A stretch of DNA of 14,587 nucleotides, from positions 2,033,120 to 2,047,706 of the forward strand of contig CP070819.1 of the NCBI GenBank assembly GCA_020344295.1, read 5' to 3'. The first letter of the stretch is position 1, and each line of letters begins with the position of its first letter. Below, piece by piece: positions 1 through 12,238 of the stretch. The notes under the pieces are model-generated. The model saw only the letters and a program-made list of their open reading frames with translations, did not search any database and had not been told where the DNA came from. Source of the DNA: Dehalococcoidia bacterium (lineage in GTDB: Bacteria > Chloroflexota > Dehalococcoidia > SZUA-161). The translations under genes were made by a program, and so were the position numbers.

Positions 1-3000
1 ACCGCCGCGTATTACCTGGCAAAGCAGGGACATAATGTAACCGTATTCGAAGCCCTCTCCGAGCCCGGAGGCATGGCACGGGTGGGTATCCCTGAATACC
101 GCCTGCCGCGCGACATACTTGCCAGTGAGATCGAGGATATTCAGAGCTTTGGTGTACAGATTGTATTAAATACGAAGATCGAGTCACTGGACTTGCTGTT
201 CGATCAGGGATTCAACGCTGTATTCCTCGGCATCGGCGCGCATCAGGGGATGAGCCTGGGGGTGGATGGAGAGGACCTCCCCGGTGTGATCGAATCTGCA
301 GAGTTCCTCCGCCGCGTAAACCTGGGAGAGCGGATAGCTGTAGGTGAACAGGTGGGAGTAATCGGAGGAGGCAACGTGGCGATCGATGCGGCCCGTGTTC
401 CGTTGCGCCTCGGTGCCAAGAAAGTAACGATCATTTATCGACGCACGCGGAATGAGATGCCGGCCAATCCCGAGGAGATCGATGCTGCGATTGAAGAAGG
501 TATCGAGATCGTTTATCTGGCTGCTCCCTCCAAGGTTTCAAGCGATAATAACAAGCTGAAACTCGAGTGCATCCGCATGGAGCTGGGAGAGCCCGATGCT
601 AGCGGCAGACGCCGCCCTGTTCCGGTGGAGGGCAGCGAGTTCACCGTCGAACTCGATACATTGATAGCGGCTATAGGGCAGCGCACCGATGTTCCCCAAG
701 GCTTCAACATCGAACTGGGGCGCGGCAATGTGCTGCAGGTCGGGGACGACATGCAGACCAGTCGAGAGGGTGTTTACAGCGGGGGCGACTGTGTCAGCGG
801 CCCGGCCACATTCATTGAGGCCATAGCGGCAGGCAGAAAGGCAGCCATATCGATCGATCTCTATCTGGGCGGAGACGGAGATATTTCCGAATCGCTCGTC
901 GGACCTGAGGAGGCGACGCATTCTGTGGAAGCACTACCGATGGAGAAACTGGCCCACTTCTCTCACCTCCTTCCGGACGGGAGGATCACCAGCTTCGACG
1001 AGGTGGAACTGGCGGTAGAGCCAGATGTTGCGGTGGCCGAGGGGATGCGCTGTCTCCAGTGCAATGTTATCGCACCTCCCGATGAAAAACTGCTGAAGGA
1101 CGCCAACTGCCAGTTCTGCGGCGCCTGCGTGGATGCATGCCCGGTTGGGGCGCTGATCGAGCGCAGCGCACGCTGGATGGATTCGACGGATCGGACCGTG
1201 TCCACTATCTGTCCGTACTGCGGGGTGGGCTGTCAGCTCAATCTCGACGTCAGGGATGAGAAAATAGTGCGAGTGGTGCCTGATATAAATGGACCAGCGA
1301 ACAGAGGCCAGGCGTGTGTCAAAGGCAAGTTCGGGCTGGACTTCGTCAACGATCCGGGCAGACTGACGACACCACTCATTAAAAAGGACGGCGAGTTTGT
1401 AGAGGCAACGTGGGAAGAGGCGCTCGACCTGATAGTGACCAGGCTTGCGGATAACAAGGGGGACCAGTTCGCCGCTATATCCTCGGCCAAGTGCACCAAC
1501 GAGGATAATTACGTTTTCCAGAAATTCACACGGGTGGTGATGGGCACTAATAGTATCGACCATTGTGCCCGTCTCTGACATGCGCCTACTGTGGCCGGTC
1601 TGGCCACAAGCTTCGGCAGCGGCGCCATGACCAACCCCATAGGAGAAATCGCGGATGCCGGCTGTGTCCTGGCTATTGGTACAAACACTACCGAAGACCA
1701 CCCTGTGATCGCACTCGAGATAAAGAAGGCGGTGGATAGCGGGGCCAAGCTCATAGTTGTCGACCCGCGTGAGATCGGGCTGTGTCGCATGGCTCATATC
1801 TGGCTTCGTCACCGTCCGGGAACGGATGTAGCCCTGCTCATGGGCATGGCGAAAGTAATAGTCGATGAGAACCTGCTGGACAAAGCGTTCATTGAAGAGC
1901 GCTGTGAGGGCTTAGTCGAGTTCCTGAGCTCTCTCGACGAATTCAATATAGATCGTGTATCTCAGATCACCAGCGTGCCTGCGGATAAAATCCAGGAGGC
2001 GGCTCGAATATATGCCACCAGTGGACCGTCAACCATTCTCTATGCTATGGGGATAACTCAGCATTCGCACGGTACGGACAACGTGTTGGCCATTGCCAAC
2101 CTCGCTATGCTCACCGGAAACGTCGGCAAGCGCTCCTCGGGTGTGAATCCGCTGCGTGGACAGAACAACGTTCAGGGCGCCTGCGATCTAGGGGCGCTGC
2201 CCAATGTATATACCGGTTATCAGCAGGTAGCAAATGAGGATGTTAAGGCGAAATTCGAGGCTGCTTGGGGCGCGTCGCTGCGAGCGGAGCCGGGTCTGGT
2301 GCTCACCGAGATGTTCCATGCAATGGAGGAGGGGAAGGTCAAGGCCGTGTATCTTATGGGCGAGAATCCGGTGCTCAGCGACCCCGATGCAAAGCACATC
2401 GAAGATGCGCTGAAGAAGGTGGAGTTCTTAATAGTCCAGGATATCTTCCTGACGGAGACCGCCCAGTACGCCGATGTGGTATTGCCGGGAGCCAGCTTCG
2501 CTGAGAAGGACGGAACCTTCACCAATACCGAACGCCGTGTGCAGCGAGTGCGCCGGGCAGTAGAGCCTGTGGGCGACTCCAGGCCTGATTGGGAGATAAT
2601 ATGTGAGATCGCACAGAGGATGGGCTCGAAGGGTTTCGACTTCGCCAATCCTTCGGAGATTATGGAGGAGATGGCACAGCTGACGCCATCATATGGCGGC
2701 ATAACATACGCGAGGTTGGAGAGCGACAGCCTGCAGTGGCCCTGCATTAACGTCGATCATCCGGGGACGGAATGCCTGCATGAAGGCGGTTTCGCCAGGG
2801 GTAAAGGCAAGTTCAGCCCACTGGAGTATAAGCCTCCTCAGGAGATACCCGATTCTGAGTTCCCCCTGGTTCTTACCACGGGGCGCAACTTGTTTCAGTT
2901 CCACACTGGAACCATGACGCGAAAATCGAAGGGGCTCAACGAGTTGAAGGGCGTAGAGGAGGTGGAGATAAATCCTCAGGATGCCGAGGCACTCGGTATC

Positions 3001-3213
3001 GCTGATGGCGATCCGGTGCAGGTAACCTCCAGAAGAGGCAAGGTCACAACCAAGGCAAAGCTGACGGAGAGCGCGGCTAAAGGTACGGTTTTCATGACCT
3101 TCCACTTTGCTGAGACCCGGACCAACCTGCTCACCAGCACTGCCCAGGATCCTGTGTCTAAAATCCCTGAGCTTAAGGTTTGTGCTGTAAGGGTAGAGAA
3201 GACAGCTGCATAA
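1..3213 (+). CDS. fdhA: Selenocysteine formate dehydrogenase alpha chain fused to a GltD-like NAD(P)/FAD module (5' partial)
   Basis: The frame is open from base 1, so the start and the first FAD-binding glycine motif lie outside the window. In-window codon numbering: 1 to about 285 is a GltD-like pyridine-nucleotide oxidoreductase with GGGN at 122-125 and a YRRTRNEMPA motif. C351/C354 and C370-x2-C373-x2-C376-x3-C380 are ferredoxin-type ligands. C404-x2-C407-x3-C411-x27-C439 is the [4Fe-4S] site of molybdopterin oxidoreductases, followed by K441. Codon 526 is UGA in the context HCARL-U-H-APTVAGL, where formate dehydrogenases have catalytic Sec-His. R719 in NPLRGQNNVQG matches the family's active-site arginine. 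The C-terminus is a molydopterin dinucleotide-binding domain (TTGRNLFQFHTGTMTRKS). Expected role: reversible formate oxidation to CO2, with electrons passing through Fe-S centres to the fused flavin module and NAD(P). It is followed after 114 bp by nfnA- and nfnB-like genes. Without Sec insertion the product would stop at codon 525. Identity is firm; the electron acceptor is inferred. Confidence 0.95.
1576..1578 (+). other. UGA recoded as selenocysteine
   Basis: This in-frame TGA interrupts an otherwise continuous reading frame. It sits exactly where formate dehydrogenases carry catalytic Sec or Cys, followed by the conserved His and a VAGL segment. Coding continues without frame change, and a SECIS-like hairpin follows. 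A sequencing error or true nonsense mutation is unlikely given that combination. Confidence 0.95.
1579..1617 (+). promoter_or_regulatory. Bacterial SECIS element (SelB-binding hairpin)
   Basis: Immediately downstream of the UGA, TGTGGCC (1590-1596) pairs perfectly with GGCCACA (1602-1608) around the five-base loop GGTCT (1597-1601). A further GCC/GGC pairing (1584-1586 with 1615-1617) can extend it below an internal loop. The GGUCU loop and the 18 nt between the UGA and the loop equal the arrangement I recall for Escherichia coli fdhF. The hairpin lies within the coding region, as is normal for bacterial SECIS elements. Confidence 0.93.
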
Positions 3214-3327: not shown

Positions 3328-4164
3328 ATGTACCAAATCGTAGCGAAGGAAGACGTCACGCCTCAAATCCATCTCCTCGAGATACATGCCCCGGATGTAG
3401 CTAAAAAGGCACAGGCGGGGCAGTTCGTCGTTATCAGGTTGGATGAGAAAGGGGAACGCATCCCTCTTACCATAGCCGACTGGAACCGGCAGAAGCGCAC
3501 GGTCACTGTTGTCTTTATGGAAGTGGGAAAGACAACCCGGAAGCTGGCAAATGTCAAGGCAGGAGACTCTATCGCCAACTTCGTCGGCCCTCTGGGCCGG
3601 CCCACCCGTATTGAGAAGTCAGGTACAGTAGTATGCGTCGCCGGTGGATTCGCCATCGCCACCATCGTTCCTATTGCCCGGGCAATGAAACAAGCGGGGA
3701 ACAGGGTTATTTCAATAATGGGCTTCCGCACCAAGGCTCTGATGTTCTGGGAGGACCGCCTGCGCAGATTCAGCGACCAACTCATCATTACTACCGATGA
3801 TGGCTCTTACGGCCGTGAGGGCGTGGTAACAGTCCCCCTGAAAGAACTGCTCGAAGGTACCCAGAAGATAGATCGTGTGATTGCAATCGGGCCCACTGTA
3901 ATGATGAAGTTCAGCTCGATTACCACTTTGCCATTCGGGGTGGACACTGTAGTGAGCCTTAACCCCATAATGGTAGATGGCACCGGCATGTGTGGCGTCT
4001 GCCGCGTAACTGTTGATGGCGCCGTCAAGTTCACCTGCGTCGATGGCCCCGAGTTCGACGGTCATAAAGTAGATTGGGATGAACTCATGGCCCGGCAGCG
4101 CACTTACCTCGATGAGGAAAAGCGGTCCCTGGAGATGTGGCAGCAGGAGCAGGCGGGGGGATAA
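3328..4164 (+). CDS. NfnA-like ferredoxin-NADP reductase subunit (FAD, [2Fe-2S])
   Basis: This 278-residue protein matches the NfnA / sulfide dehydrogenase / DHODH electron-transfer (PyrK-like) family at its usual length. The FAD-binding barrel carries R44-x-P46-L47-T48 and GPLG at 87-90. The nucleotide-binding part has VAGGFAIA near 104-111 and TTDDGSYGREG at 155-165. The C-terminal iron-sulfur site has C222, C225 and C237 with D217 just before, consistent with the unusual Asp/3-Cys [2Fe-2S] site of NfnA. In characterised NfnAB it takes electrons from NADH and works with NfnB in bifurcating transhydrogenation. Here it follows a formate dehydrogenase and ends 6 bp before an nfnB-like gene, so the two are surely co-translated. 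The ATG has only a weak upstream GGGA. Orthologues are also annotated as sulfide dehydrogenase subunit beta, which cannot be excluded from sequence alone. Confidence 0.88.
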   Translation: MYQIVAKEDVTPQIHLLEIHAPDVAKKAQAGQFVVIRLDEKGERIPLTIADWNRQKRTVTVVFMEVGKTTRKLANVKAGDSIANFVGPLGRPTRIEKSGTVVCVAGGFAIATIVPIARAMKQAGNRVISIMGFRTKALMFWEDRLRRFSDQLIITTDDGSYGREGVVTVPLKELLEGTQKIDRVIAIGPTVMMKFSSITTLPFGVDTVVSLNPIMVDGTGMCGVCRVTVDGAVKFTCVDGPEFDGHKVDWDELMARQRTYLDEEKRSLEMWQQEQAGG

Positions 4165-4170
4165 AGACTT

Positions 4171-5565
4171 ATGGCGAAACTTGACCTGAACCGGGTGCCC
4201 ATGCCCAAGCAGGAGCCCGAAGCACGATCTGAGAACTACGACGAAGTGGCATTGGGCTATTCAGACGAGGAGGCCCTGGCCGAGGCCAACCGCTGCATCC
4301 AGTGCAAGAAACGCCCCTGCGTCCAAGGTTGCCCCGTGGGCGTGGACATTCCGGAGTTTATTGATGCGCTCAGGAATAACGATATGCCTGAAGCTGTCAG
4401 ATCGCTGAAGGCAAAGAACGCCCTGCCCGGCGTCTGTGGTCGGGTCTGTCCGCAGGAAACACAGTGCGAGGAGGTATGCACCCTGGCCAAGAAGGGTGCG
4501 CCCATGGCAATCGGTCGTCTGGAACGCTATGTCGCTGACTGGGAGCTGAACCATCAAAACGATTCGAATCGGGAGGTTGCTCCTGCAACCGGCAGCAGGA
4601 TAGCCGTGGTCGGATCCGGCCCGGCGGGACTGACTGCAGCAGCTGATCTCGCGAAGCGGGGACATCAGGTAACAATCTTCGAGTCACTGCATGTAGCCGG
4701 TGGTGTGCTTATGTATGGTATCCCCGAGTTCAGACTGCCCAAGAGAATCGTCCAGGCCGAGGTAGACTACGTCAGGTCGCTGGGCGTGGAGATCAAGCTG
4801 GACTCAGTGATTGGTAAAACATTAACTGTCGATGAACTGCAGGAAGTGGGTTACGACGCAGTCTTTCTGGGTACAGGGGCCGGTCTGCCCATGTTTCTCA
4901 ACATCCCTGGTGAGAATCTAAACGGGGTTTACTCTGCCAACGAGTTCCTTACCCGTATCAATCTTATGAAGGCCTACCTGTTCCCCGAGTATGACACACC
5001 TATCAAGGTTGGAAAGAAAGTCGCTGTTATCGGAGGCGGTAATGTAGCTATGGATGCTGCCAGGTGCGCTGTCAGGCTCGGTGCCGGCGAGGTCCACATA
5101 GTGTATCGCCGCTCTCGAAACGAGATGCCGGCCAGACTGGAGGAGCTTGAGAATGCTGAAGAGGAAGGGCTCATAATCAATCTACTCACTAATCCGCTAA
5201 GGTTCCTGGGTAATGACCAGGGATGGGTTTACGGTATGGAATGCATTGAGATGGATCTTGGTGAGCCCGATGACAGCGGCCGGCGGCAGCCGATGCCGAG
5301 GGAGGGCAGTGATTTCATAATTGATGTCGATACTGTGGTAGTGTCCCTGGGCACCTCCCCCAATCCTCTGGTGCCCTCTGCCACTGAGGGCCTGAACACC
5401 ACTAAACGAGGTACGGTCATTATCGATGAAGGAACAGGAAAGACCACCAAGGCAAAGGTATGGGCCGGTGGCGATATCGTCACCGGGGCGGCGACTGTGA
5501 TCAGCGCAATGGGTGCCGGTAAAAGAGCCGCCGCCTCGATCGATGCCTATCTCCAGGGTAAATAA
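4171..5565 (+). CDS. NfnB-like / GltD-family NADPH oxidoreductase (FAD, two [4Fe-4S])
   Basis: 464 residues, typical for NfnB, SudA and the glutamate synthase small-chain family. The N-terminal cysteine domain has C42-x2-C45-x4-C50-x3-C54 followed by PVGVDIPEFI, and C89-x3-C93-x5-C99-x3-C103 (GRVCPQ...CEEVC). These are the two [4Fe-4S] sites. GSGPAG at 148-153 binds FAD and GGGN at 288-291 begins the NADP-binding fold, followed by YRRSRNEMPA. No glutamate synthase large chain is present, and the NfnA-like gene lies just upstream. An NfnAB/SudAB-type complex is therefore more likely than glutamate synthase. The start has a purine-rich GGGGGGA stretch 8 or so bases upstream. It shares clear motif-level similarity with the flavin module fused to the formate dehydrogenase in this window, so two GltD-type modules are encoded side by side. 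Confidence 0.9.
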   Translation: MAKLDLNRVPMPKQEPEARSENYDEVALGYSDEEALAEANRCIQCKKRPCVQGCPVGVDIPEFIDALRNNDMPEAVRSLKAKNALPGVCGRVCPQETQCEEVCTLAKKGAPMAIGRLERYVADWELNHQNDSNREVAPATGSRIAVVGSGPAGLTAAADLAKRGHQVTIFESLHVAGGVLMYGIPEFRLPKRIVQAEVDYVRSLGVEIKLDSVIGKTLTVDELQEVGYDAVFLGTGAGLPMFLNIPGENLNGVYSANEFLTRINLMKAYLFPEYDTPIKVGKKVAVIGGGNVAMDAARCAVRLGAGEVHIVYRRSRNEMPARLEELENAEEEGLIINLLTNPLRFLGNDQGWVYGMECIEMDLGEPDDSGRRQPMPREGSDFIIDVDTVVVSLGTSPNPLVPSATEGLNTTKRGTVIIDEGTGKTTKAKVWAGGDIVTGAATVISAMGAGKRAAASIDAYLQGK

Positions 5566-6456: not shown

Positions 6457-7809
6457 TCATGAGGCAACACACTTTACGTACTGATACTTCTTCGTCGCCA
6501 ATGAGCCCAGTCCTCGATTCAACGAATACGCGACTACGGTCAGAGGCAGGCTCCTTGTTTGCAGAAACGAGTTGAAAGCCCTCTTTAATGACACCGCTCT
6601 CGAGTCAATCCCTTGATATATTCGATATACACCGTCTTCCAGTTCATCCGGGGTCATGTGCCGGGGCCTGAATACTGCCTCCTCGAAATCGTAGTGCCGC
6701 CAGTCTTCAGGATAATTGGTACGCAATAACCTCTCCTCAGCCATCAATCTACTGTATAGCCGGGTCCCCGGGAGAGGTGTTAAGATGGTGAATGAGGCCG
6801 TATCTATCTTCGAATCCAGTATAAAGTCTATAGTCCGCTCAAATATGTCTTTGCGATCGCCATCGCTCCCCAGGACGAAGGCCCCATGCACGCCAATACC
6901 GTGTTCATGTATTCTCTTGATTAACTCCGTGTATTTCCCCGCTCCAACCTTCAGATTCCTTACCTTGTGCATAGCCTGAAGTGCATCTTCATCGATGGAC
7001 TCGAAACCGATGTGTACTGCCAGACAGCCCGACCTCTTGGCCCAGCTTAATACCTCGGGATTAATGGCGAAATCGATTCCCACCTGAGAGATCCAGCGCT
7101 TTTTCAGGCCGCGATCCACCAGACCCTGAAACAACCGGATAGCTCTACGCTCCGCCTCTTTACCATAGTTCAGGATATTATCGTCGGAGAAAAACAACTC
7201 CCTGCAATCCAGGGCCTCCAGTTCATCTAGCACGTCTTCTACGGGCCTTTGTCTATATGTTCGACCGTGAAAGGTTGCCACAGAACAGAACTCGCAGTCT
7301 ATGGGGCAGCCTCTCGCTGTTTGTACTGAAGCTTTAATCCTGTATTTGTCAGAATAAAGGTCATTTCTAGGTCTGGCGAGGTTCTCTAAAGAAATACGTT
7401 CCCCCTTATAGATACTCTTCAACCCATTTTTTTCGAAGTCATGCAGTACTCTCTCCCAGACGGATTCCGCCTCGCCTATTACAACGGAATCGACGAACCG
7501 GATGGCTTCGTCGGGCAACATAGAGGCATGAATGCCGCCCATAACTGTCTTGACGCCCCTCTGCCTGTATAGCTCCGAGATTTCGTATGCCCGGGGAGCG
7601 TTCCAGGTCATGGCGGTGATCCCTACCAGGTCGGCATCCTCGAAAGTCAGGGGATCGACATTCTCATCGGCAATCACGATATCCCATTTGGGAGGCGTCA
7701 TTGCGGCCAGATATGCCAGGCTCGGCGGGGGCAATAGGAAAATGCGGACGTCGATTGCATTCAGCTTGGCTTGATCACTTGGATTCACAAGTAACAGTTT
7801 CTTTGACAT
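6457..7809 (-). CDS. Radical SAM protein with N-terminal cobalamin-binding-type domain, copy A
   Basis: 450 residues from the ATG at 7809, which is preceded by AAAGGATAAT, a good ribosome-binding site. A longer frame from 7848 exists, but the shorter start aligns with the paralogue's start (KKLLLxNP). Residues 1 to about 130 form a Rossmann-like B12-binding-type domain (DADLVGIT, GGIHASMLPDEA, VIGEAESVW). No DxHxxG cobalamin motif is visible. The radical SAM core carries C168-x3-C172-x2-C175 in TARGCPIDCEFCS, followed by FFSDDNI and GFES motifs. The C-terminal part (LTPLPGTRLY ... YPEDWRHYDF ... MTPDEL) resembles the tail of HpnP-type proteins. These families perform radical methylations or C-C chemistry on lipids, pigments or natural products; substrate unknown. 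It is the downstream gene of a two-gene unit, overlapping or nearly touching the upstream paralogue. Confidence 0.88.
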   Translation of the reverse strand: MSKKLLLVNPSDQAKLNAIDVRIFLLPPPSLAYLAAMTPPKWDIVIADENVDPLTFEDADLVGITAMTWNAPRAYEISELYRQRGVKTVMGGIHASMLPDEAIRFVDSVVIGEAESVWERVLHDFEKNGLKSIYKGERISLENLARPRNDLYSDKYRIKASVQTARGCPIDCEFCSVATFHGRTYRQRPVEDVLDELEALDCRELFFSDDNILNYGKEAERRAIRLFQGLVDRGLKKRWISQVGIDFAINPEVLSWAKRSGCLAVHIGFESIDEDALQAMHKVRNLKVGAGKYTELIKRIHEHGIGVHGAFVLGSDGDRKDIFERTIDFILDSKIDTASFTILTPLPGTRLYSRLMAEERLLRTNYPEDWRHYDFEEAVFRPRHMTPDELEDGVYRIYQGIDSRAVSLKRAFNSFLQTRSLPLTVVAYSLNRGLGSLATKKYQYVKCVAS

Positions 7810-7844
7810 ATTATCCTTTTCTTTTACCAAGGGCAAAAAATGTC

Positions 7845-9275
7845 TCATACACTAATTGCTTCCTCATCGCAGCTCTCCCGGCTTGTCAAAGAGGCGTCCG
7901 GTTGCCAGTCATCGATTCTTGAGGAACGTGTATCCTTGATATGCCAGCAGTTCCTTAGCCAGAATGTGCGAAATCCACGATTATATGAAAACATGATAAC
8001 GCCTCCATACGAACTCCTTGATTGGACAGCAGAATTAAGAGCCCTTTTAAATGACTTGACCATAGAGCAGGTGTCTCTATAGACCCGGGTTGCACCTTCT
8101 TCCAGCTCATCGGGTGTCATGTGCTTAGGTTTGAATACAGCTTCCGTGAACCCGTAGTGCTTCCAGTCGCTAGGATAACGAGTGAGCAGCAGCCTTCCTT
8201 CTTGTTTTAACCTGTTGTACAGTCTTGTTCCTGGAAGCGGGGTCAGAATCGATATTTGTGCTCCGTCCATCTTTGAATCCAAGATGAACTGGGTTGTCCG
8301 GTCAAACACATCTTTCATGTCTCCGTCACCGCCCAGAACAAATGCCCCAGCAACTAGAATTCCATGGTCACGTATTCTCCTAACCACATCTTTATAGTTA
8401 CTTGCACCAACCTTCAAGTTCCTAACCTTATTCATACTCTTTAGACATTCGTCATTTAGAGACTCAAATCCAATAAAAGCTACCAAGCAACCCGCTTTCT
8501 TAGCTAACTTCAGTACATCAGAGTTAGTGGCGAAATCGATCCCTACTTGACAAGCCCATCGTTTGTTCAGTCGTCTCTCCAGCATCCCTCGGAACAGCCT
8601 GATTGCCCTTTTTTCTGCAATTTCTCCGTGACCTAATATATTGTCATCCATAAATAATAGATTCCTATAATCTGTAGCTTCCAGTTCGCTCAGCACATCT
8701 TCAACAGGTCTCTGTCTATAGGAACGACCGTACAGGGTTGTAACGGAACAGAACTCGCAGTCCATCGGGCAGCCCCTTGCTGTCTCTACGTGTACTTTAG
8801 TATGATAATCCTGTAATTTATATAAATCCCATCTATGTTTGACACATTCCTCAAGGGATATAAGCTGTCCTTGATAGAAATGTTTTAATCCGTTGCTTTC
8901 AGAATCACGAACCACCTGTGGCCAGACAGACTCTGCTTCCCCTATCACGACAGAATCAACAAACTGGATGGCCTCATCGGGCAACAGTGAGGCATGCACA
9001 CCGCCCAGCACTGTTCTGATGCCCCTCCGTCTATATTGTTCAGCTATTTCATACGCTCTAGGAGCATTGCTGGTGTAAGCAGTTATCCCAACCAAGTCAG
9101 CATCTTCAAACGACAGATGTTCTACATTCTCATCGACTATCCTTATTTCCCAATCCGATGGAGTCAATGCGGCTACGTACCCCAAACCTATTGGCGGAAC
9201 TCTGATAGGAGCGACAATACCTAAACTTAGCCTGGCATCTTGAACTGGATTAATCAGTAACAGTTTCTTATTCAT
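7845..9275 (-). CDS. Radical SAM protein with N-terminal cobalamin-binding-type domain, copy B
   Basis: 476 residues from the ATG at 9275. A TTG six codons upstream would add residues that do not match the paralogue, and neither start has a clear ribosome-binding site. Architecture is the same as the downstream copy: a B12-binding-type domain (GITAYTSNAPRAYEI, GGVHASLLPDEA) and a radical SAM core with C169-x3-C173-x2-C176. The tail begins LTPLPGTRLYNRL. By hand count, 39 of 50 residues around the cysteine motif are identical to the neighbour, so the pair arose by tandem duplication. It differs in having a C-terminal extension of about 25 residues after the shared NRG motif, rich in Ser, Asp and Glu. 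Its TGA overlaps an ATG at 7848, so translation of the two genes may be coupled. Reaction and substrate unknown. Confidence 0.88.
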   Translation of the reverse strand: MNKKLLLINPVQDARLSLGIVAPIRVPPIGLGYVAALTPSDWEIRIVDENVEHLSFEDADLVGITAYTSNAPRAYEIAEQYRRRGIRTVLGGVHASLLPDEAIQFVDSVVIGEAESVWPQVVRDSESNGLKHFYQGQLISLEECVKHRWDLYKLQDYHTKVHVETARGCPMDCEFCSVTTLYGRSYRQRPVEDVLSELEATDYRNLLFMDDNILGHGEIAEKRAIRLFRGMLERRLNKRWACQVGIDFATNSDVLKLAKKAGCLVAFIGFESLNDECLKSMNKVRNLKVGASNYKDVVRRIRDHGILVAGAFVLGGDGDMKDVFDRTTQFILDSKMDGAQISILTPLPGTRLYNRLKQEGRLLLTRYPSDWKHYGFTEAVFKPKHMTPDELEEGATRVYRDTCSMVKSFKRALNSAVQSRSSYGGVIMFSYNRGFRTFWLRNCWHIKDTRSSRIDDWQPDASLTSRESCDEEAISV

Positions 9276-9664
9276 TGTGATGATCAGAGTCAAATATGAA
9301 AGAGAAATTCGCCAGTTGGATTCGCGGTGTCAATTTCTGGAGTGCTAGTAGTGTCGATTCTCCTCACTCGAGGCTATTCTGAAGAGGCGACCGAGTCTGA
9401 CACTTCAGCATAGAGGACTATAAGGAAATTCGAGAACGAGTGCCATATAAAATATCAGGCTATGACCAATTTGTCAATAGGGTGAATGCCCTTTTATTTC
9501 AATTTATTTGCGGAGAAATCAAAGGCGTAACCTGTCACTTTTGTGGTGACCTATTTACGCAGGTCGGAATAACTTACAGGACATCCCGCGCTTCACTTGT
9601 TCAATTAAATCTTTCCTTGTAAGAGCGGTTCTAGTAAAATAGCCAAAGCGCAGGCGATCCGATA
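9276..9664. other. Divergent intergenic region between the radical SAM pair and mutS
   Basis: 389 bp, more AT-rich than its surroundings. It must hold the promoters of both directions, but I could not place a convincing -35/-10 pair for either. A TTGACA reads on the minus strand at 9333-9328 without a good -10. The only strong structure is the inverted repeat at 9374-9413. A 60-codon GTG frame (9440-9622) lacks a well-placed ribosome-binding site and is not called. Confidence 0.6.
9374..9413. repeat. Inverted repeat, 11-nt arms
   Basis: CTATTCTGAAG (9374-9384) and CTTCAGCATAG (9403-9413) pair at 10 of 11 positions around an 18-nt spacer. It lies about 100 bp upstream of the radical SAM unit and 250 bp upstream of mutS. 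It could be an operator, the hairpin of a leader transcript, or remnant sequence; no T-run follows. Confidence 0.5.
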
Positions 9665-12238
9665 ATGACACAGAGAACAACCCCGATCAGAACTCAGTAC
9701 CTCAAGATCAAGCGGAGCTATCCCCAGGCTATTGTCTTCTTCCGGCTGGGCGATTTTTATGAGACCTTCGATGAAGACGCCAAGATAGTCTCCAGTGAAC
9801 TGGAGATCGTGTTGACATCCAGGGAGATGGGCAAGGGACAGCGCTATCCTATGGCGGGGATTCCACATCACGCCCTGGACAACTATCTGGCCAGGCTTAT
9901 CAATAAGGGCTATAAGGTGGCCATCTGCGAACAGGTCAGCGAACCCAAGGCGGGCAAAGGCATAGTCGACCGGGAGGTCGTTCGGGTGGTGACACCGGGA
10001 ACCATCATCGAGCCCAATCTGCTGGAGACAAAGACGAATAATTACCTCGTCTCCCTGTGTGTCGAAGGCGAAATGGCAGGGATAGCCTACATTGACATAA
10101 CGACGAGCGAGTTTGCTACTACCCAGATCGCTATCGAGAGGGTCCCCCTCGAACTGGAACGCCTGAGTCCTTCCGAGGTACTCATTCCCGATGGTGCACA
10201 GTTCCCCCAGTCGTGGTTCGAAGCCCCATCGACTGAACTCGATGATCACTGGTACGATTTCGATACGGCGCAGCAGGCCCTGCTAGACGGTCTGGGCGCA
10301 GCCTCTCTGGAAGGCTATGGCTGCGCCCACCTTCCGCTTGGAGTCAGAGCAGCCGGCTCCATTCTGCGGTATCTGGAACAGACCCAGAAAGGTGTACTGG
10401 AACAGATAAACAGCCTCTCTACCTACTCAACCGAGTCCTACATGACTTTGGATGCCCAGACGCGCCGCAATCTCGAGCTGTTTCAAAGCAGTCGCCTGGG
10501 ATTGACCAGCGGCTCGCTTCTGTCTGTCATAGACCTGGCCAAGACACCAATGGGGGGAAGGCTGCTCAAGAAATGGCTGGGACAGCCTCCACTCGACATA
10601 AAACAACTGGAGCAGCGGCAGCAGGTCGTTTCCTGCTTCCAATCTCCGCACCGGATGGACGTGATAGGCCTCCTCAGCAAATTCAATGATATCGAGCGAC
10701 TGATCAACAGGGTACGGACAGGTATCGCCACCCCAAGGGAGCTGGTCTCGCTACGGCGCAGCCTGGAGCAGATACCCCGGCTGAGATCCGAACTCGAAAA
10801 TGAAGCCGACTTGCAATGGTTATGCTCGGAACTCAAACCATGTGACGACGTGGCTGTGCTGATCTCTCAGGCCATTGTTGAGGAGCCCCCGGCGATGGTC
10901 ACTGATGGCGAAGTGATCAAGAGCGGCTTCTCCAGTGAATTGGATGAGCTCCGCTCCTCCTCATCGAATGCCCGGAGATACCTGGCCGAACTGGAACAGA
11001 TCGAACGATCGAGAACAGGCATCAAGTCGCTCAAGGTCGGCTATAACAAGGTGTTCGGATACTATATCGAGGTCACCTCGCCGCATGTGCACCGTGTCCC
11101 CGAGGATTATATACGTAAGCAGACACTTGTCGGCGCGGAACGTTATTTCACTCCCCAGCTCAAGGAGTACGAATCCCTGATCCTGAGCGCGGAGTCAAGG
11201 ATCACGGAACTGGAGACCGCTATCTTCCGCCAGGTCTGCCGTCAGGTGGGCGGCTGGGGCGACCGAGTCCTGAGCATTGCCGCTGCCGTGGCCCAGATCG
11301 ATGTTCTCTGCGCCTTTGCGGAAGTGGCTGCCCGTCATGGTTACAGTCGCCCCAGGCTGACCCTGGATGACTCTATTACAATATCAGGGGGACGCCATCC
11401 GGTGGTTGAGCTGGCGCTTGTCGATGATCAGTTCGTTCCCAACGACGTCTACCTGTCGAACAAGGACGCCCAACTCATCATCCTCACAGGCCCGAATATG
11501 TCGGGCAAATCGACCTACCTGAGGCAGGTAGCGATAATTGTGCTGCTGGCCCAGATCGGCAGCTTTGTTCCCGCCGACTCGGCCACCATCGGCCTCGTGG
11601 ACCGGATATTCACCAGGGTCGGTCTGCAGGATGACCTGGTGACGGGCCAGTCTACCTTCATGATAGAGATGCTGGAGACAGCTAACATACTTAACAACGC
11701 GACTTCAAAATCGCTGATCATACTGGATGAAATCGGGCGCGGTACCTCGACATACGACGGGCTCTCCATAGCACAGGCCGTTGCTGAATTCATTCATAAC
11801 CATCCCCGGCTCGGAGCAAAGACGCTGTTTGCCACCCACTACCACGAGCTAGTAGGGCTGGCCAACTACCTTCCCCGCGTGAGAAACTTGAACGTCGCTG
11901 TCACAGAGGATGAAGGCAAGGTAGTGTTCCTGCGAAAGATAATCCCTGGTGGCGCCGACAAGAGTTATGGCATTCACGTAGCACAGCTGGCGGGCCTGCC
12001 GCGAGCAGTTGTACACCGCGCCGAGGAAGTTCTGAACCAGCTAGAGAACCACACCGGGGAGAAAGCAGCCAGGAGAGAGCCCACTGTTCGCCGGGAGAAG
12101 ATTCCCTCGGAGCAGCTATTGCTGTTTGGGCAGAAGCCCCCTATTATAGATGAAATCCTCGGGATGGATGTCTCCTCTATGACTCCACTCGAAGCCATTA
12201 CCAAGCTCTACGAGCTTCAGGAGAAGGCCAAAGAATAG
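9665..12238 (+). CDS. mutS: DNA mismatch repair protein MutS
   Basis: 857 residues, the normal length for MutS1. The N-terminal mismatch-binding domain carries the F-x-E motif as F31-Y-E33 in GDFYETF, and the family segments YPMAGIPHHA and KVAICEQVSEP. The clamp/lever region spans roughly 265-560. The ABC-type ATPase has Walker A G609-P-N-M-S-G-K-S-T617, Walker B ILDE (D688, E689) and the GRGTSTYDG signature, then ATHYHEL. The C-terminus ends with the short MTPLEAITKLYELQ helix typical of MutS. It recognises mispaired bases as a dimer and recruits MutL; no mutL is in the window. The ATG has only a weak upstream AGG. A universal stress protein gene follows after 70 bp on the same strand and may be co-transcribed. 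Confidence 0.97.
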   Translation: MTQRTTPIRTQYLKIKRSYPQAIVFFRLGDFYETFDEDAKIVSSELEIVLTSREMGKGQRYPMAGIPHHALDNYLARLINKGYKVAICEQVSEPKAGKGIVDREVVRVVTPGTIIEPNLLETKTNNYLVSLCVEGEMAGIAYIDITTSEFATTQIAIERVPLELERLSPSEVLIPDGAQFPQSWFEAPSTELDDHWYDFDTAQQALLDGLGAASLEGYGCAHLPLGVRAAGSILRYLEQTQKGVLEQINSLSTYSTESYMTLDAQTRRNLELFQSSRLGLTSGSLLSVIDLAKTPMGGRLLKKWLGQPPLDIKQLEQRQQVVSCFQSPHRMDVIGLLSKFNDIERLINRVRTGIATPRELVSLRRSLEQIPRLRSELENEADLQWLCSELKPCDDVAVLISQAIVEEPPAMVTDGEVIKSGFSSELDELRSSSSNARRYLAELEQIERSRTGIKSLKVGYNKVFGYYIEVTSPHVHRVPEDYIRKQTLVGAERYFTPQLKEYESLILSAESRITELETAIFRQVCRQVGGWGDRVLSIAAAVAQIDVLCAFAEVAARHGYSRPRLTLDDSITISGGRHPVVELALVDDQFVPNDVYLSNKDAQLIILTGPNMSGKSTYLRQVAIIVLLAQIGSFVPADSATIGLVDRIFTRVGLQDDLVTGQSTFMIEMLETANILNNATSKSLIILDEIGRGTSTYDGLSIAQAVAEFIHNHPRLGAKTLFATHYHELVGLANYLPRVRNLNVAVTEDEGKVVFLRKIIPGGADKSYGIHVAQLAGLPRAVVHRAEEVLNQLENHTGEKAARREPTVRREKIPSEQLLLFGQKPPIIDEILGMDVSSMTPLEAITKLYELQEKAKE

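Follow-up and report, generated by a model that had tools for sequence, protein, structure and literature searches.

The two open reading frames (ORFs) at the beginning of the 14,587-nucleotide stretch of Dehalococcoidia DNA analysed here (the window) are very probably one gene for a Mo- or W-dependent formate dehydrogenase (FDH), in which the UGA at 1576-1578 would be read as selenocysteine (Sec) by means of tRNA-Sec, SelB, and an adjacent hairpin. This reading, one selenoprotein gene rather than two genes, was proposed in an earlier note on the same DNA, and it remains the best one because the UGA lies at the catalytic position, every stop codon found at this site is UGA (36 of 36), other orthologues carry cysteine (Cys) there, the hairpin is tied to the UGA, and selection is similar on both sides of it. 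The gene itself is ordinary, a textbook Sec-FDH arrangement in an uncultured Chloroflexota bacterium. It is less unusual than had been implied, since Sec-FDHs in subsurface Chloroflexi, and Cys forms of them in closely related organisms, are already described in the available portions of PMC4959059 and PMC5736913. To judge from its domains, its least ordinary feature is an architecture like that of StnC (see below) combined with a seemingly active FDH domain.

Frame 1 of positions 1-3213 (+ strand) contains two stop codons, the UGA at 1576-1578 and the terminal TAA at 3211-3213, the UGA being the only internal stop in 1,070 codons; the other two forward frames of this region contain 57 and 41 stops. 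As originally claimed, the UGA (residue 526, the predicted Sec codon) stands in an unbroken frame at the catalytic position, within the motif CARL-U-H. Alignment with characterised FDHs, a check that the earlier note had suggested, places it at an X (a non-standard residue) in the solved F420-linked FDH 9t1s and at a Cys in the HDCR FdhF 7qv7. When the window is translated mechanically with table 11, the same region gives a 525-codon open end and a second ORF of 540 amino acids that starts at a GTG (1591-3213, + strand). The window begins directly after a gap of 100 N's, and therefore the gene lacks its 5' part here; positions 1-3213, which had been taken as the whole gene, are a predicted GltD-like/FdhA fusion selenoprotein gene whose beginning was lost in the assembly gap. 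In all eight relatives examined (8/8), the frame extends upstream by a further 209-365 codons. Consequently, the full product, with the ~280 residues that relatives add, would be ~1,350 amino acids (~147 kDa by length) rather than the ~120 kDa expected earlier.

The predicted protein enters the window inside a GltD/NfnB-like FAD and NAD(P)H domain whose start is missing (1-870, + strand; PF07992 at residues 2-278, with StnC- and NfnB-type chains as PDB matches), and continues through a 4Fe-4S ferredoxin motif (1105-1155, + strand; PF00037) into the FDH alpha domain (1204-3195, + strand; TIGR01591 at residues 402-1065, 871 bits against a cut-off of 666.25). The TIGR01591 match is continuous across the UGA and spans both ORFs. 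Downstream on the + strand lie genes for an NfnA-like FAD/NAD-binding subunit (3328-4164; NF004862, 421.6 bits against a cut-off of 220) and an NfnB-like subunit of the GltA family (4171-5565; TIGR01316, 589.9 bits against a cut-off of 471.75). In a relative from the same genus (L023), the upstream stretch contains PF13510 and PF10588 (NuoG-type Fe-S) together with PF14691. The whole gene would then be a NuoG-N + GltD + FdhA fusion followed by nfnA-nfnB, with the NuoG-like N-terminus seen in relatives only. Among 44 loci examined from the best 80 of 154, this domain order is present in 13 (L023-L034 and L042), and nfnA-nfnB follow on the same strand, as in the window, in six (L026, L047, L048, L050, L057, and L065), counts that include many contigs ending soon after fdhA; in L040, nfnA-nfnB lie on the opposite strand. 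The fusion is not universal within the family: the whole window protein is matched in four family genomes (G007, G003, G004, and G005), in G002, G006, and G008 the best match does not start until about residue 362, and the match in G009 is at 41%. When the missing N-terminus was sought in the host genome itself, the best match was an 840-amino-acid frame that is 51% identical and is a paralogue. (This NuoG-N + GltD-like frame, at G000:C1:1206379-1210016, adjoins a formate-tetrahydrofolate ligase match of 511.8 bits, at a distance of ~0.2 kb.) Elsewhere in the window, two adjacent, similar ORFs on the - strand (6457-7848 and 7845-9293) resemble B12-binding radical SAM families most closely, and no match among those listed is over the curated cut-off of its family.

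The codon at the site was compared across 110 loci, which comprise the best 80 of 154 relative-encoding loci from a scan of named genomes and 30 loci from 18 genomes of the order. The site is covered by 104 of the 110, giving 108 rows, of which 102 are unique (window and paralogues included). Among these unique rows the codon is TGA in 36, TGC or TGT in 60, and another codon in six; neither TAA nor TAG is present in any of the 102, and so a stop codon at this site is always TGA. This distribution bears on the idea that the UGA is a real stop, dividing two separate proteins of which the second starts at GTG 1591, or leaving the second ORF as the relic of a dead gene. Such a reading accords with the two ORFs given by table 11 and with the failure to find selD in the host, but it is very improbable given that UGA recurs at the exact site in 36 unique rows with Cys in others, that the frame runs unbroken through the Cys orthologue in G005, that TIGR01591 spans both halves, and that tRNA-Sec, selA, and selB are present. 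It is also at odds with dN/dS, which is similarly low on either side of the UGA: 0.091 before and 0.080 after it relative to L023, 0.119 and 0.131 relative to L025, and 0.112 and 0.116 relative to L105 (the first part is saturated relative to L026 and yields no value). Purifying selection is thus similar on both sides of the codon.

The prediction that standard gene calling would report truncated proteins is borne out in the databases. Among the best 120 of 7,998 protein-database matches to the second ORF, 84 are 520-550 amino acids long, with starts that all lie 5-17 residues beyond the Sec position, and the remaining 36 are at least 770 amino acids; this search admits only proteins of ~297-945 amino acids, and full-length fusions could not appear in it. 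Gene callers halve Sec proteins, and 84 of these 120 listed relatives have been deposited as such stumps.

The second element of the one-gene reading, a SECIS hairpin after the UGA, likewise holds up. The hairpin (1590-1608, + strand) has a 7-bp stem formed by 1590-1596 and 1602-1608 and the loop GGUCU at 1597-1601, 18 nt from the UGA. The SECIS of E. coli fdhF has the same GGUCU loop and the same 18-nt spacing. The Rfam model SECIS_3 matches at 1573-1631 with an E-value of 5.8e-5 and 35.7 bits, which is under its 63-bit gathering score, and the folding energy is unexceptional (z of -0.68 for 1576-1620 and -1.34 for 1579-1611). Folding energy is weak evidence for the hairpin, and the case for it rests on comparison. 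A covariance model of our own, trained on 30 other Sec loci with the window excluded, gives the window 77.1 bits; in the 2.1-Mb genome it finds no second match at E up to 0.5 among the 150 of 1143 first-look candidates that were scored.

Comparison of Sec and Cys rows indicates what the hairpin follows. The loop GGTCT is present in 34 of the 36 TGA rows versus 10 of the 60 Cys rows; when only rows that encode the same Gly-Leu are counted, the numbers are 34/36 and 10/48, and therefore the hairpin tracks the UGA codon and not the protein. (Fisher p-values on these loop and codon counts treat related rows as independent.) At least six of the seven stem pairs are formed in 32 of 36 Sec rows versus 10 of 60 Cys rows, and 89.7% of stem cells are paired across all 36 Sec rows versus 62.1% across all 60 Cys rows. 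In a set of 30 Sec rows, with the window among the six excluded, 91.0% of cells are paired versus 84.0% in shuffles (0/500 as high), and four pairs of the same stem have changed on both sides. A 30-row Cys control set has 57.1% paired cells, a value that overstates the Sec/Cys contrast because intact-hairpin rows were excluded when the 30 were drawn from the 60, whereas the 36- and 60-row counts are complete; on one measure of covariation, that of cells changed on both sides, this control too lies above its shuffles (2/500 as high). When relatedness is taken into account by a tree-based test on ten independent Sec/Cys pairs, which has lower power, the link between hairpin and UGA is only modest. 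Of the three hairpin criteria tried in this test, at least six of seven stem pairs gives 5.6 pairs in the same direction and 0 in the other (median p 0.031), at least five contiguous stem pairs gives p 0.070, and the loop gives p 0.125.

The hairpin and its recurrence also weigh upon two other explanations. One is that the codon at 1576 is really Cys and became UGA through a sequencing or assembly error. The assembly does contain gaps, and near selB one contig end is a close but inexact copy of another contig's start, but there is hardly any likelihood of such an error at this codon: the UGA and hairpin recur in separately assembled relatives, including one of the same genus (L023, in G007), and the error would leave the hairpin unexplained. 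Just as slight is the chance that the UGA is read by some route other than Sec (Trp suppression, or a code in which TGA is Trp), since, even though the frame is open once TGA is read as a residue, other orthologues have Cys and not Trp at the site, a SECIS and Sec machinery are present, and a full-length MutS in the window (9665-12238, 1044 bits) has no in-frame UGA when translated with table 11.

Of the host Sec machinery that the earlier note had inferred, tRNA-Sec (selC), selA, and selB were found, but selD was not. The host genome (G000) is a single record whose pieces are separated by gaps of 100 N's, and it is 70.6% complete. Its tRNA-Sec, with anticodon UCA (ARAGORN), scores 70.3 bits; the tRNA-Sec model also matches Ser tRNAs and control genomes, and the call rests on the UCA anticodon and on the gap between 70.3 and 51 bits. 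The selA and selB matches score 532.7 and 360.1 bits, respectively. No selD over the cut-off is present in this 70.6% complete assembly, and curated models identify the two candidates for it as hypE (475.5 bits) and purM (363.5 bits). Similarly, none is over the cut-off in G007 (same genus, 88% complete) or G006 (same family, 90%). All three genomes are without selD yet have fdhA (UGA- or Cys-type), selA, selB, and a tRNA that scores with the tRNA-Sec model. Within the 18 genomes of the order, selA is over the cut-off in 14, selB in 14, and selD in 11, each of the 11 selD genes having one in-frame TGA; within the family, selD is found in six of nine genomes, the exceptions being G000, G007, and G006. 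We estimate that selD would be absent by chance from both genomes of the window's genus with a probability of ~0.035 if losses are independent. A second selB beside selA was also considered, but the 36-codon stub there is more simply a contig-end fragment, being a near-repeat of the beginning of the contig that carries the full selB. The contig end after selA (G000:C1 276,763-276,870) and the beginning of the selB contig (1,156,935-1,158,776) are close copies with mismatches, and no exact overlap was found when eleven lengths between 21 and 141 nt were tried. Because this near-repeat connects distant pieces, the arrangement of the pieces joined by 100-N gaps in G000 is untrustworthy.

In the mechanism that we propose, the hairpin just downstream of the UGA would recruit SelB and tRNA-Sec, and Sec would be inserted at 1576-1578. 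The catalytic subunit shares its chain with a GltD-like flavin/NAD(P)H module and, judging from relatives, with a NuoG-like N-terminus. Electrons would probably pass from NAD(P)H to FAD, then through Fe-S clusters to the Sec-ligated metal site, where CO2 may be reduced to formate for the methyl branch of the Wood-Ljungdahl pathway, or the reaction may run in reverse. The downstream nfnA-nfnB products probably balance NADPH, NADH, and ferredoxin.

Several known systems resemble this one in part. The E. coli FdhF type and Moorella FdhA share with it the UGA at CARL-U-H, an adjacent downstream SECIS with a GGUCU loop, and SelA, SelB, and tRNA-Sec in the genome; in contrast, the catalytic domain here is fused to a GltD-like flavin module, and selD was not recovered in the assembly. 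The Sec-FDHs of subsurface Chloroflexi, as far as the available portions of PMC4959059 and PMC5736913 describe them, come from the same phylum, have Sec or Cys at this position in close relatives, and occur in a Wood-Ljungdahl context. According to these same portions, FdhA in the DscP3 NAD-FdhAB has a NuoF/HylB-like subunit as its partner, whereas here the GltD-like nucleotide module is in the same polypeptide and nfnA-nfnB are adjacent. The closest architecture is that of StnC from the Sporomusa Stn transhydrogenase (PDB 8oh5 and 8oh9), which also has NuoG-like, GltD-like, and FdhF-like parts in one chain and whose FdhF domain is catalytically inactive, as given in the available portions of PMC10482914. 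By comparison with StnC, the window gene has kept the Sec/Cys site and a full TIGR01591 domain, and its neighbours are NfnA/NfnB-like. It is conceivable, if rather doubtful, that the product corresponds to StnC but is active, as a selenoenzyme in which one chain is an NADPH-formate dehydrogenase, that it forms with NfnAB one formate/NADPH/NADH/ferredoxin hub, and that it resembles the ancestor of StnC's dead FDH domain. This StnC-like fusion points to a way in which uncultured Dehalococcoidia may connect formate, NADPH, and Nfn. We recognised no description of a Sec-FdhA/GltD fusion in the open-licence literature, judged largely from listings, and none is given in the available portions of PMC9012536 or PMC6405883.

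The relatives also reveal exchange between Sec and Cys. A tree of 90 rows (35 of the 36 Sec and 55 of the 60 Cys rows, kept if they had at least 55% identity near the site and a match of ~450 residues or more) requires at least 16 Sec/Cys changes, 10 of which are forced by well-supported branches; their direction depends on where the root is placed. Four Cys rows, L107 (the same as L026, in G005), L109 (in G006), L051, and L071, have the GGTCT loop and a stem of 6-7 pairs directly after the Cys codon; with our own model these score 67.6-71.0 bits, and nine other Cys loci tried score 34.4-53.4 bits. G005 has kept selA, selB, an ARAGORN-confirmed tRNA-Sec, a UGA-bearing selD, and a UGA-bearing FDH of a second type, and therefore Sec has been lost in its fdhA protein and not as a trait. 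Likewise, selA and selB are still present in G006, whose Cys-type fdhA has an intact SECIS hairpin. Sec/Cys switching with leftover SECIS hairpins thus happens in this FDH clade. The pattern is not new: the available portions of PMC1794560 report Cys-FdhA with an intact or remnant SECIS-like hairpin in Sec-decoding organisms, as in G005 and G006 but in another lineage, and those of PMC13188914 describe Sec-to-Cys changes as rare and mostly in FdhA and SelD. A clade with many such switches and some leftover hairpins would suit a test of what drives selenocysteine loss. Our model also gives five further SECIS matches in relatives (35-38 bits, E < 1e-4). The three that were examined, L164, L165, and L167 (in G008, G005, and G017, respectively), belong to a second FDH with an in-frame UGA in the motif HCARL-U-HSS; L164 is an FDH-N alpha subunit (TIGR01553, 1192.1 bits), and by eye both L164 and L167 have a twin-arginine-like N-terminus.
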